From positions 1 through 32,542 of the forward strand of contig CAJXVL010000003.1 of NCBI GenBank assembly GCA_913061205.1: a stretch of DNA of 32,542 nucleotides, written 5' to 3'. Position 1 is the first letter of the stretch. Each line of letters opens with the position of its first letter. Below, one piece after another: positions 21,791 to 27,606 of this stretch. The notes beneath the pieces are model-generated. The model did not search any database and was not told where the DNA came from. It saw nothing but the letters and a program-made list of their open reading frames with translations. This DNA comes from an uncultured Flavobacteriaceae bacterium (GTDB lineage Bacteria; Bacteroidota; Bacteroidia; Flavobacteriales; Flavobacteriaceae). The translations under genes were made by a program, and so were the position numbers.

Positions 21791-24097
21791 CTATCCTTTT
21801 ATTTTCTTTTCTTTAAAAGAATTAAATGCACCTAATTTTTTACGTTTAGGCCAGGTATTATTTGAAGTATCTACATCTGCTGTTTCTTCATCTGGATCTA
21901 CTACAATTTTAGTGATTTCTTTATCGGAAGCAATTACCTTCCCTACAGACTGATCACTTGTTTTCCATATTTGTACAGGATAGGTAACTCTTTCAGTACT
22001 ACCATCACTATAGGTGTATTCAGCAATGATTGGCATCGGTAATCTTCCTGGTTTCTCAAAAGTTACTTCATAGAAAAATGTAGGCTTTTTTAGTTTTGCT
22101 ATTTCTTCGGGACTAAAATTATCCATGATGTATTCTTGCAATGTAGAAACATCGTCTAAACTAGAAGTACGCATACTCTCTTCAAAATCATCACTACCTT
22201 CTTCTACTAAATATACCAATGGAGGAAGATCACTTTCTTTCATTCCCCTAGCGGTCATCATTTCTTCAACTTCTTTAGTCATTTTTGAAGTAACAAAGTA
22301 TTTCTTGACCTCTCCTACTCCAATATCTACCACATTAGTGGTATAAAACCATCCTCTCCAAAACCAATCTAAATCCATTGCCGAGGCGTCTTCCATGGTA
22401 CGGAAAAAATCTTCAGGTGATGGATGTTTAAACATCCATCTTTGGGCATATGTTTTAAATGAATAATCAAATAATTCTCTGCCCATTACGGTTTCTCTTA
22501 ATATATTTAATCCCGTTCCGGGTTTAGAATAACCATTCGCACCAAAATTATAAGTATTTAATCCTTTTGTCATAATTGGAGCAATCGAATTTTGATCTCC
22601 GGACATATAACTTACAATATTTTTTGCAGGCCCTCTTCTTGATGGATATTTTTTATTAGGAGCTATTGCATCAGGGTATTTTTCGCCAAAATCTTGTTCT
22701 GCTATATATTGCACAAAAGTATTGATTCCTTCATCCATCCATGTCCACTGACGCTCGTCACTATTTATAATCATTGGAAAATAATTATGTCCTACTTCAT
22801 GAATTATAACTCCAAACATACCATATTTTGTGCGTTCGCTATAGGTCCCATCTTTTTCTGGACGGCCATAATTCCAACATATCATTGGATATTCCATTCC
22901 TTGATTTTTAGCGTGTACTGAAATTGCTTTTGGATAGGGGTAATCAAATGTCATTCTTGAATATGTTTCTAAAGTACTAGCAACTAATTTAGTTGACCAA
23001 TCTTCCCATAAAGGATTTCCTTCTTTAGGATACATTGAAACTGCCATCACTTCTCTTTCTCCAACTTTAACTGCCATCATATCCCATATAAATCTTCTTG
23101 AACTTGCAAATGCATAATCCCGAACATTTTTTGCTTTGAATTTCCAAGTTTTTTTATTCGCATCAAAACTTGTTGAAGCTTCATCTGCTTCATCTTGAGT
23201 TACAATTATTACTGGCTCATCATAAGACTTTTTAGCCTTATCATAACGGCTCATCATTTCTTTACTAAAAACTTCTTTTCTGTTTTGAAGCACTCCAGTT
23301 CCATCTAAAATATGGTCTGCAGGTACTGTGATATTTACTTCATAATCTCCAAATACTAAAGCAAATTCATCTCTTCCCCAAAACTGACTATTTTGCCAAC
23401 CTTCAACGTCACTATATACTGCCATTCTTGGAAAAAATTGAGCAATTACATATGCGCGATTTCCATCTTCGAATTCTTCATAACCACTACGACCACGATT
23501 GTTTACATGATTGTTTATGTTATACCACCAACGAATAGAAAAAACAAATTTATCTCCGTTATTCATACTTTCTGGCAATTCAATCCGCATCATAGTGCGA
23601 TTTATCATATAGTCTAAATCATTTCCATTGTTATCCTTTACAGATTGTATGTTAAATCCACCATCAAATCCTTCTCCCATATATTGATTTACAAAGTTTC
23701 CAGCCATATCTGCTGGAGCTGCACCACTAGATTCGATTAAAGGAGTTTTAGAGTCTTTAGCTCGCATATTTTGATCTAACTGAACCCATATATAGTCCAA
23801 AACATCTGGAGAGTTATTGGTATAAGTAATCGTTTCGTAACCTGAAAGTTTCTTGTTTTTATCATCAAGTTCTATATCCATAACATAATCTGCTTGTTGC
23901 TGATAATAAGCTGGCCCTGGGGCTCCACTTGCAGATCTGTATTGGTTAGGAGTTGAAAACTCTTCATATAATTGTTTAAAAGGATTGTTATTGTAGTGCC
24001 CTGGGACACGTTCTTCCTTTTGATCTTCTTCTTGGGAATAACTAAATCCAGTTGCTAAGAATAAAACAACTAAAGTTAAAGTTTTGAATGATTGCAT
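21791..24097 (-). CDS. M1 family zinc metallopeptidase, secreted
   Basis: 768 aa with signal peptide MQSFKTLTLVVLFLATGFSYS, cleaved before QEED. The gluzincin motif HEVGH (433-437) and Glu456 18 residues on (WMDEGINTF) bind zinc, with E434 catalytic. The N-terminal beta domain carries DIELDDKNKKLSG and TYTNNSPDVLDYIWVQLDQN, typical of M1 enzymes. It should remove N-terminal residues from peptides in the periplasm or at the surface. There is no T9SS tail. It is the last gene of a three-gene minus-strand set with the DUF6702-like and carboxypeptidase-regulatory-like genes. Confidence 0.94.
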   Translation of the reverse strand: MQSFKTLTLVVLFLATGFSYSQEEDQKEERVPGHYNNNPFKQLYEEFSTPNQYRSASGAPGPAYYQQQADYVMDIELDDKNKKLSGYETITYTNNSPDVLDYIWVQLDQNMRAKDSKTPLIESSGAAPADMAGNFVNQYMGEGFDGGFNIQSVKDNNGNDLDYMINRTMMRIELPESMNNGDKFVFSIRWWYNINNHVNNRGRSGYEEFEDGNRAYVIAQFFPRMAVYSDVEGWQNSQFWGRDEFALVFGDYEVNITVPADHILDGTGVLQNRKEVFSKEMMSRYDKAKKSYDEPVIIVTQDEADEASTSFDANKKTWKFKAKNVRDYAFASSRRFIWDMMAVKVGEREVMAVSMYPKEGNPLWEDWSTKLVASTLETYSRMTFDYPYPKAISVHAKNQGMEYPMICWNYGRPEKDGTYSERTKYGMFGVIIHEVGHNYFPMIINSDERQWTWMDEGINTFVQYIAEQDFGEKYPDAIAPNKKYPSRRGPAKNIVSYMSGDQNSIAPIMTKGLNTYNFGANGYSKPGTGLNILRETVMGRELFDYSFKTYAQRWMFKHPSPEDFFRTMEDASAMDLDWFWRGWFYTTNVVDIGVGEVKKYFVTSKMTKEVEEMMTARGMKESDLPPLVYLVEEGSDDFEESMRTSSLDDVSTLQEYIMDNFSPEEIAKLKKPTFFYEVTFEKPGRLPMPIIAEYTYSDGSTERVTYPVQIWKTSDQSVGKVIASDKEITKIVVDPDEETADVDTSNNTWPKRKKLGAFNSFKEKKIKG

Positions 24098-24160
24098 ATT
24101 TTAATAATTATTATTTTTAGTTTCGAAATATAGTTTTCTTATGGATATTTTAAAGCTTGT

Positions 24161-24670
24161 TTAATTAAATTTTAACAGTCCATCGGGATGGTTTTTATCT
24201 AAAATCATGTTTCTGTTAGCATCTGGTGTGATCATATGAATAATATTTTGTTGTTCTGGAAACATATCAAAAAGAATTTTATTTTTAATTTCAATAGAGG
24301 TAAGTTCTGAAATATTTTCAATTTCAAAATACATATTCACAATATCAATATCGTATTCTTTTCCTATATAAATAAGTTCAACAGGCTTATTATTTACACT
24401 AATTTTAAGTTTTTGATCAACGTATTTTTTTAAATAATTAATATCAGCCTTTGTTTCTTTTTTTGGGTTTAAAACTATTAAAGGACTATACCTTTCTTGA
24501 AGAACTTTTTCTAGATCTTCAACAAATATTTTTGAAATAATTTGAATTGTTTGCATTTCTGGAACATATTCTACATTCGTTGTACTCACATAAAACTTAT
24601 GAGATATGGAGCTTATTAATATTGGAAATAAAATCAGTACAAGAGTAGTTTTAAAAAATTTCATATTCAT
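24161..24670 (-). CDS. DUF6702-like exported protein
   Basis: 169 aa; ATG at 24664 is an alternative start two codons in. An N-terminal hydrophobic segment (FFKTTLVLILFPILISSISH) is followed by HKFYVSTTNVEYVPEMQTIQI, then a beta-rich region ending in the acidic TPDANRNMILDKNHPDGLLKF. This matches the flavobacterial DUF6702 proteins usually found beside M1 peptidases. No catalytic motif is visible; function unknown. Confidence 0.85.
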   Translation of the reverse strand: MNMKFFKTTLVLILFPILISSISHKFYVSTTNVEYVPEMQTIQIISKIFVEDLEKVLQERYSPLIVLNPKKETKADINYLKKYVDQKLKISVNNKPVELIYIGKEYDIDIVNMYFEIENISELTSIEIKNKILFDMFPEQQNIIHMITPDANRNMILDKNHPDGLLKFN

Positions 24671-24701
24671 AAGACTGTTTATATAAAAAATAGTTACACT
24701 A

Positions 24702-25469
24702 TTATTTTTTTATTATTTTTATTCTTGGAACATATATCTTAGATTTTTCATTAAATATTTGCAGAACTCCTGCAAAATTTTGTCTATTGTAATCAGAATT
24801 TAATGTGGTGGTTTCGATACAAAATAACAGAAAATCATATAATTTATTATTTGGAATACGGTAAGCATCCTCAAAAAACTTAAACCCATAATAATCTATA
24901 ATTTCTACAACTGTTAAATTTTCCTTAGTCCACTTTCGTTGAATTTTTAATTTTTTATAGTAACCTCCAATATGTTTGTATAATGCCTCTATATTAACAC
25001 TTAAAGGAAATGCCGCAGCTGCTAGAGGTACTATTTTTTCTTCGGGTTCTCCTTTAAAACCAGGTATTCCTACATCATCAAAATTAAACGTTTCTTCTAC
25101 TTTTATATTTTTTAAATCTGTAGAAAGATCCCCTGTTAGTGTATTTCCGATAAACACCTCATCTAATTCATTAACTAGTTCGTTTAAGTTAATATTGATT
25201 ATTTTTTTATGGTAAATATCTTCTGTAATTATCAATTCTTTAATCTGATATTTTACAGAAGAAAATATAATGGTATCAAAAACTTGTATTCTAATAACGA
25301 ATTCTCCAAATTCATTAGTAACTGTATTATATCTAGATGTTTTATTTAATATATGAATTCCTTCAATATCAAAAGCATTGGTAATCTTACCTTCTAAATC
25401 GATTTGTTGACTACTTGCTATATTAAATACAAAGAGGAATAGACCCAGTAACAAATAAGCATTTTTCAT
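24702..25469 (-). CDS. Carboxypeptidase-regulatory-like domain protein, secreted
   Basis: 255 aa. The signal peptide is MKNAYLLLGLFLFVFNIASS, cleaved before QQID. Residues about 23-100 (DLEGKITNAFDIEGIHILNK, TVTNEFGEFVIRI, ITEDIYHKKIININL) form a CarboxypepD_reg-like beta domain of the kind found at the N-terminus of TonB-dependent receptors, but no plug or barrel follows. The remaining 150 residues (NFDDVGIPGFKGEPEEKIVP onward) are family-specific. Probably an envelope protein acting with the two genes downstream. Confidence 0.83.
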   Translation of the reverse strand: MKNAYLLLGLFLFVFNIASSQQIDLEGKITNAFDIEGIHILNKTSRYNTVTNEFGEFVIRIQVFDTIIFSSVKYQIKELIITEDIYHKKIININLNELVNELDEVFIGNTLTGDLSTDLKNIKVEETFNFDDVGIPGFKGEPEEKIVPLAAAAFPLSVNIEALYKHIGGYYKKLKIQRKWTKENLTVVEIIDYYGFKFFEDAYRIPNNKLYDFLLFCIETTTLNSDYNRQNFAGVLQIFNEKSKIYVPRIKIIKK

Positions 25470-26316: not shown

Positions 26317-27606
26317 TTATTGTTTGATAAACTTTACAGTTTTACTTCCTTTTTCTGTTGATAGCTTTGCAAAATAAATACCCGCGTCTAAATTAGAGGT
26401 CTCCATAGAGAAATTAGTTGCATCTGGAGATGCACTCTTTACCATTTGTCCAAGCGTGTTGTAAACTACAACATTTGTAATTTGCTCATCCGACTGGATA
26501 TTTATGTTATTAATTGTAGGGTTTGGATAAACAGAAACATTAATAGCATTAACGTCGTTAACAGCAAAAATTTCAGTACCTGTTACAACAACTCCTCCTA
26601 ATGCAGCCTCATCTAAAGGATTTGCATTTAATCCGAATACTTGAAATCCATATTGAACAACAGCATCATCACTTTCAACATTGTCATAAACTAAAGAAAA
26701 GTCAGATCCTTCAAAATCAAGTAGAACTTTTTCTTCCTTTAGTACACTAAAGTCAGAATTAAATACTTTAATAAATGCATAAACATTATAATTTGCTAAA
26801 GATAATGTGGTATTGATACCAGAACCTGTTGATTCATCTATAATAAGTTGACCAACAACATCACTTACCATAAACACAGGAATAGTAACTAATTCTCCTT
26901 CAGCTCCAGGAGCCATAACAATAGGTGCACCTTCCACATTATTAACTACAATAACTGCAACAGCACCTGCATTTTCAGCATTTAATGCTTTTGTGCCAAA
27001 CTCACATGCTCCTCTTCTAAGTATAGCTATTTTTCCTTCTAATGCTCCTGCATTAGTAATAGGTTCACAAGCATCATTCTCATCTGGATCAACACCTTCA
27101 TCGGTTACTAAAACTACGTCTGCTGTTACTCCTTCAGGAGTAAATATTCCTCCAAATTGTGCAGGAACAGCTTGATGACCACCATCTAAAGGTCCACCAT
27201 TTACGTTAAATTTTAGATACCCAACACCTGGTAACATCAACGTATTAGAATTAACAGACCCTTCAAATGTAAGTTCACTGCCAACTAAGGTATTGTCTTC
27301 TACATAAGTATTCCCTTCAAAATTTTTGTTACCAAGTAATGTTGTTTGGTTTACCCAAAATGGATCAGTTCCATCATCCCAAGTATTAAAGTTAGGTTGC
27401 AGGGTTAAGGTATTGTTTTCTGTATCTACTATAGTTTGTAAATCCGTTACACCCCAAGGTTCACCGAAAACAAAGTCTCCATTTGTTTCAAATACATTTG
27501 CATAACCATTTTGTGTAGCATTTGCATCAACTGTTACTGTATTTTGAGCTATACCCATAGAGCTTAGGCAAAATACTAAAGCAATTGTAAAATAATTTTT
27601 TTTCAT
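26317..27606 (-). CDS. T9SS type A sorting-domain protein with PA domain
   Basis: 429 aa. Signal peptide 1-20 (cleaved before QNTVTVDA). Residues about 22-125 form a beta-rich domain. A protease-associated (PA) domain spans about 128-270 (GVTADVVLVTDEG, GKIAILRRGACEFGTKALNA, AGAVAVIVVNN, IPVFMVS). A second beta segment lies at 271-342 (YNVYAFIKVFNSDFSVLKEE, AVVQYGFQVFGLNANP), and the C-terminal Por secretion tail at 352-429 (VYPNPTINNINI, LGQMVKS, LDAGIYFAKL, KTVKFIKQ). The tail directs export through the type IX system and surface attachment or release. There is no peptidase catalytic domain, so it is probably an adhesive or binding surface protein rather than an enzyme. Own terminator; an inverted repeat lies in its 5' region. 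Confidence 0.92.
   Translation of the reverse strand: MKKNYFTIALVFCLSSMGIAQNTVTVDANATQNGYANVFETNGDFVFGEPWGVTDLQTIVDTENNTLTLQPNFNTWDDGTDPFWVNQTTLLGNKNFEGNTYVEDNTLVGSELTFEGSVNSNTLMLPGVGYLKFNVNGGPLDGGHQAVPAQFGGIFTPEGVTADVVLVTDEGVDPDENDACEPITNAGALEGKIAILRRGACEFGTKALNAENAGAVAVIVVNNVEGAPIVMAPGAEGELVTIPVFMVSDVVGQLIIDESTGSGINTTLSLANYNVYAFIKVFNSDFSVLKEEKVLLDFEGSDFSLVYDNVESDDAVVQYGFQVFGLNANPLDEAALGGVVVTGTEIFAVNDVNAINVSVYPNPTINNINIQSDEQITNVVVYNTLGQMVKSASPDATNFSMETSNLDAGIYFAKLSTEKGSKTVKFIKQ

Follow-up and report, generated by a model that had tools for sequence, protein, structure and literature searches.

The window analyzed here, a 32,542-nucleotide stretch of DNA from an uncultured Flavobacteriaceae bacterium, encodes a protein of 429 residues in which a PA module lies between two parts of a beta domain, and the question it raises is how a module of secreted peptidases came to interrupt a surface protein that has no peptidase domain. 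The reading we favor, to which we give a probability of about 0.7, is that of a nested-domain surface protein: a single capture of an M36-type PA at one turn of a CBM-like, putatively glycan-binding T9SS protein. The parts of the protein and the evidence for each are collected in table 1.

Table 1. Features of the 429-residue protein, with positions in the window
Feature	Position	Strand	Evidence or remark
ORF, 429 aa	26317-27606	(-)	Putative T9SS cargo
Predicted signal peptide, residues 1-21 (MKKNYFTIALVFCLSSMGIAQ)	27544..27606	(-)	Read from sequence
Beta domain, first part, residues 22-123	27238..27543	(-)	Uninterrupted-domain profile positions 1-107, 142-145 bits
Inserted M36-type PA module with lead-in and exit strands, residues 124-272	26791..27237	(-)	NF038113, M36 identity, fixed insertion point
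PA core, residues 160-254	26845..27129	(-)	PF02225, 66 bits, E 3.5e-18
Beta domain, second part, residues 273-342	26581..26790	(-)	Uninterrupted-domain profile positions 103-178, 80-82 bits
T9SS type A C-terminal sorting domain, residues 359-427	26326..26532	(-)	PF18962 Por_Secre_tail, 52 bits

With 66 bits against a Pfam gathering cut-off of 23.9, the PF02225 match places the central piece in the PA family, and NCBIfam likewise finds a T9SS type A tail at the end of the chain (TIGR04183, 58.8 bits on residues 359-429 of 429); beyond the PA and the Por_Secre_tail, Pfam returned nothing for the 429-residue protein up to an E value of 10. The M36 catalytic domain PF02128 is absent from the protein according to Pfam, which sets it outside the M36 peptidases and bears out the remark of an earlier note on this DNA, made from the sequence alone, that no protease is present. 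The NCBIfam model for T9SS-dependent M36 metallopeptidases (NF038113) matches the protein with 154 bits over two stretches, the better of which (residues 135-271) corresponds to profile positions 416-551, the PA region of the peptidase, and exceeds the Pfam core; the interrupting piece is therefore best read as a PA of the M36 type that brings its own lead-in strand. The boundaries that the same note had drawn for the two halves of the beta domain (residues 22-125 and 271-342) and for the PA (128-270) are correct to within a few residues, as the paralog described below aligns to residues 1-122 and 271-342. The signal peptide is kept across nine orthologs with a mean identity of 79%.

Elsewhere in the genome of the window, contig C42 encodes the beta domain once more, here with both parts contiguous and without the PA. 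This paralog is 70% identical to residues 1-122 and 63% identical to residues 271-342, and its two halves are encoded in neighboring DNA (C42:12079-12453 and C42:12460-12672). The earlier note had described the two halves as contiguous in other T9SS proteins, and this holds across the family: a beta-domain query matched 20 of 199 genomes, 19 of which encode the whole domain and three the split form, two of these three encoding both. A scan of relatives with a 17-row profile matched 16 of 197 genomes (12 whole, six split, two both), while the beta domain was found in four of 395 genomes of an order sample and in two of 395 of a phylum sample, counting the window's own genome in each, and both phylum matches had already appeared in the earlier scans. 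It should be noted that the scans of 199, 395, and 197 genomes overlap, and the pooled counts refer to distinct genomes: 23 encode the whole form, seven the split form, and three both. Joined, PA-less forms thus occur in the window's own genome and in 23 genomes overall, with a constant insertion point, and the seven genomes with the split form fall into two genera. A search of MAG contigs returned one M36 peptidase and nine full-length split orthologs, the latter on contigs named Flavobacteriaceae, Flavobacteriales, Bacteroidetes, Aequorivita or Ulvibacter.

Fifteen of the 24 retained whole rows are proteins of 284-317 residues, consisting of a signal-peptide-like start, the domain, and a tail, and are to all appearances the same protein minus the PA; the T9SS tail was confirmed with Pfam in two of the whole-form proteins (L022 and L054). 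This unnamed family of uninterrupted Flavobacteriaceae proteins (C42, L022, and L054, among others) shares the signal peptide, the beta domain, and the tail with the 429-residue protein, but lacks the PA and has a turn of eight residues at the site. We found no sequence relative of the beta domain in Pfam, NCBIfam, or the PDB: the whole-domain profile reached a best E value of 0.26 against solved structures, and the 17 whole domains gave no convincing family in Pfam or NCBIfam (best E values 0.011 and 0.045, one member of the 17 each). No CBM model of either database scored meaningfully on these domains or on the 429-residue protein. Neither of two viral-contig scans yielded a confirmed relative, and a plasmid scan gave a single partial PA match, inside a metallopeptidase gene.

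PA-less beta domains also occur in larger proteins. A 952-residue frame (L052/L116, G582:C97) comprises two tandem PA-less beta domains followed by other repeats and adjoins a GH3-cluster gene; judging by these tandem copies, the beta domain is a modular unit. Another PA-less copy lies within an open frame of 2623 residues (L033/L060, G085), apparently a long repeat protein. The window genome itself has, on C42, a frame of 731 residues cut by the contig end (L019:4080-6272), with a PA-less beta domain and repeats, immediately preceded by genes for GH16 and GH3 enzymes and for a T9SS-tailed protein; it has no match in Pfam or NCBIfam.

The insertion point is the turn L-D-x-x-Y, flanked by two conserved strand-like segments. 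The spacing from the motif (N)T to the motif xFIKVF is eight residues in all 13 whole rows caught by this pattern and 151-155 residues in 12 of 12 split rows, and the whole rows missed by the pattern have turns of eight to about 14 residues, again without a PA. As far as the alignments tell, there is one site, a tight turn, and the M36-type PA module inserted there measures about 145 residues. A plain chain of three domains, with the two segments as separate domains flanking the PA, is hardly credible on this evidence: in the whole proteins the segments occur only as parts of one conserved unit of 179 positions, the position of the PA is taken by the fixed turn of eight residues, and the 15 whole rows of 284-317 residues are too short for a linker domain. 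What such a chain has on its side is the weakness of the AF2 models, which taken alone could not speak against separate domains.

These models have a mean pLDDT of 47.0 for the whole protein and 53.8 for residues 21-342, from inputs of 10 and 11 sequences. The 50 solved chains listed for the cropped model align 110-137 of its residues, starting at residues 1-5 and ending at 322, on single beta-sandwiches. Many of these matches are beta-sandwich CBMs, with Z scores of 7.5-10.2 (2c26, the best with 10.2, CBM15, CBM16, CBM22, CBM4, and CBM11), where a Z of 7-8 is the usual best for models this weak according to the structure-search tool's own note; a Bacteroides surface glycan-binding protein is matched as well, and the matches that are not CBMs include phage tailspikes, Elapor1, and meprin. 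With Foldseek, the cropped model first returns PA-bearing aminopeptidases (8ack, E 3.7e-4) and then sugar-binding Fbs1 chains. The matched stretches of the solved structures are about 110-175 residues long, whereas the model has 322, so that the PA would be largely skipped and both halves would lie in one sandwich. Provisionally, we therefore regard the beta domain as a CBM-like beta-sandwich built from both parts. Its likeness to the CBMs is one of modeled fold, with no sequence relationship found, and glycan binding by the 429-residue protein is putative. Two separate domains are not what the predictions show, as the single-sandwich matches span both halves, although with models this weak the support is provisional; together with the contiguous paralog and the constant insertion point, these matches support the earlier note's reading of a PA inside a beta domain. 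Trp51 and Trp84 are invariant across 10 split rows and have counterparts in 16 of 17 and 17 of 17 whole rows, respectively; a role of these residues in ligand binding is a guess.

Where the inserted module came from is indicated by the only other PF02225 gene of the window genome, an M36 peptidase, whose PA is 55% identical to that of the 429-residue protein. When 59 relatives were searched with the PA, the six matches belonging to the beta-domain family were followed by 13 in frames of 682-889 residues, the length of an M36 peptidase; L003, L076, and L085 are M36 peptidases by Pfam (PF02128, 463-470 bits), and L003 also by NCBIfam (1098 bits). In a tree of 33 PAs without a non-M36 outgroup, the 12 distinct inserted PAs form one clade (95/92) among the flavobacterial M36 PAs, and a variant tree, likewise without a non-M36 root, recovers them again as one clade (95/91). 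The intended outgroup consisted of further PA genes from the relatives, in frames of 467-617 residues that we take to be M28-like peptidases; these scored below 8 bits against a profile of the inserted and M36 PAs and stayed out of both trees. The first tree left out PA rows below 60 bits (L093 and L094) and the second a fragment of 78 residues (L090), and identical rows were merged and counted once (the G576/G582 copies being L013/L011, G188 L009, and G161 L017).

The 12 inserted PAs forming one clade, one capture is the likeliest explanation, and the direction from the M36 peptidases to the beta domain is read not from rooting but from the wider spread of two states, the beta domain without a PA and the PA borne by an M36 peptidase. 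A single capture of the PA from the lineage of T9SS-dependent M36 metallopeptidases is thus the most likely origin on sequence evidence. These peptidases (NF038113, PF02128 interrupted by PF02225) share with the 429-residue protein a homologous PA with its lead-in strand, nested in another domain, and a T9SS tail at the end; they differ in the host, which in the 429-residue protein is the beta domain without an M36 catalytic domain, and the match is confined to the PA region and the tail.

In several relatives the split and whole genes occupy the same operon slot. Upstream of it lie genes for T9SS-tailed repeat proteins and, where the contig is long enough, GH3 and GH16 genes; downstream follow a sodium:solute symporter or MFS transporter, phosphofructokinase, GAPDH, a BadF-type ATPase, and phosphoglucose isomerase. 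The slot gene is PA-less in G568 and G584 and PA-bearing in G580, G583, G188, G582, and G576, and shorter versions of the slot are seen in G161, with phosphofructokinase directly after the PA-less gene, and in G118, with the symporter after the gene. A GH16- or GH3-cluster gene is present at 9 of 15 PA-less loci and at 2 of the 8 distinct PA-bearing loci that were read; contig ends truncate three of these eight (G580, G188, and G582). Around the PA-less genes of G109, G167, G163, and G045 the neighbors are different. The enzyme set of the slot suggests the use of beta-glucan. The available text of a study of Formosa describes laminarin loci that carry GH16 and GH3 enzymes and an increased abundance of nine peptidases with laminarin (PMC6246565).

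The window copy has no glycan genes alongside, and the same applies to L010, L012, and L014-L017. The window genome may hold a further copy in the operon slot; the phosphofructokinase of the operon was not found in this assembly of 273 contigs, which is 87% complete, in a search run without a positive control. Adjoining the 429-residue gene in the window (21791-25469, minus strand) are, in series, genes for an M1-type peptidase, a DUF6702 protein, and a CarboxypepD_reg-like protein.

Phylogenetic analysis of the beta domain (36 rows) gave two changes of state, with the split rows in two places and the G580/G583 pair apart, and the tree of the full-length proteins without the PA (29 rows) also shows two. 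Read literally, the best beta-domain tree would favor at least two separate insertions of one PA type at the same turn. We consider this very improbable, as the inserted PAs form the one clade described above, with G583 and G580 branching first, and a single host clade of split rows is compatible with the data (p-AU 0.286 for the beta-domain tree and 0.374 for the full-length tree). The reverse history would start from a PA-bearing ancestor and derive the PA-less proteins by repeated clean loss. It gains from the slot genes without a PA in G568 and G584 (L054), which nest in the split clade once the signal peptide and tail are included and so make one or more losses or replacements plausible. 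As an account of the whole family it seems quite improbable, given that PA-less rows make up the deep branches of the domain tree, with a genome of another family (G456) among them, that the whole form is found in 23 genomes versus seven with the split form, and that close PA-less copies have the turn of eight residues without a scar.

We therefore keep to a single capture, with the possibility of local replacement afterward. The tail of L054 is 89% identical to that of the PA-bearing gene L011, while its domain is closest to the PA-less tandem domains (72%, vs. 69% for the nearest split gene); this is a hint, and only that, of a recombinant in which a PA-less copy replaced a PA-bearing gene. 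The corresponding gene of G568 (L053/L097) is a frame of 224 residues with an early stop within the T9SS tail, compared with 289 residues in the near-identical G584 gene (L054/L098), suggesting a frame break or an assembly error.

The PA is about as conserved as its host, with a mean identity among orthologs of 65% compared with 69% and 64% for the host halves. Among the diverged pairs, purifying selection acts on the PA: its dN/dS is 0.04-0.15 in the three pairs with a PA dS above 0.4. Four closer pairs, where the estimate is noisier, give 0.16-0.51. These values bear on whether it might be a neutral passenger, a functionless insertion tolerated in an unimportant loop. PA-less forms fill the same slot in sister genomes, which makes the PA dispensable to the operon, but a passenger would be unlikely to be conserved as strongly as the host halves, to be under purifying selection, and to be retained in seven genomes of two genera, and we consider this explanation unlikely.

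Under the single-capture reading, a PA of the M36 lineage would have entered a whole beta domain once, at the L-D-x-x-Y turn, followed by descent and by duplication to new places, leaving the window copy outside the glycan operon, and perhaps by replacement of some PA-bearing genes by PA-less copies. The protein would be exported by the T9SS and retained at the cell surface, and may there bind a beta-glucan such as laminarin; we infer this ligand from the orthologous slot, which lies among GH16/GH3 and T9SS-tailed repeat genes and is followed by genes for a sugar-type transporter and for glycolysis. Beside the glycan-binding fold, the PA would offer a second contact face, for a protein-linked glycan or a partner protein, and would carry out no proteolysis itself. 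This second, perhaps peptide-recognizing, face of a surface glycan-binding accessory protein is the least certain part of the proposal and is drawn by analogy with other PA proteins. A further extension, which we find doubtful, would make the PA a portable recognition cassette that moves in and, by recombination with PA-less copies, out at one fixed turn, some lineages capturing protein-bound beta-glucan (glycoprotein debris) and others the free glycan.

PA insertion as such is known; the host here is a CBM-like surface domain, not a peptidase. In the accessible part of a study of peptidase PA and PA-like inserts (M28 and S8; DUF2172 in DUF4910), these lie within another domain and are proposed to serve as lid and in recognition, and the hosts described there are peptidase or peptidase-like domains, in contrast to the CBM-like sandwich of the 429-residue protein (PMC4000134). 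A PA in a glycan-handling protein that is not a protease is found in zebrafish Ngly2, an acid PNGase for which a glycopeptide was modeled in the cleft between the PA and the jelly-roll PNGase domain; Ngly2 is, however, an enzyme, and the text available to us does not describe its PA as inserted into the jelly-roll domain (PMC12753239). The plant vacuolar sorting receptor VSR1, another non-protease, binds peptides with its PA according to the available portion of the source (PMC11052993), and its PA has a weak sequence match to that of the window (4tjv, E 0.057), but there the PA is N-terminal, beside thioredoxin and EGF-like domains, and serves eukaryotic sorting (PMC11052993). In the accessible text of open-licence papers, we found no description of a PA nested in a CBM-like T9SS beta domain.

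Domain insertions are common, but few offer all of the following at once: sister genomes with the site filled or empty in one operon slot, an empty paralog in the same genome, and a recognizable source family. Two natural proteins that differ by one module make the role of a PA without a protease testable, and the case links a module of secreted peptidases to what is probably a glycan-capture protein of marine bacteria. G210 encodes a further, distinct PA protein that is not a protease (L093:1258-3042): this T9SS-tailed protein of 595 residues has a PA at 57.6 bits and no peptidase domain in Pfam, and its PA resembles that of the M36 peptidases (NF038113, 93 bits over two stretches).
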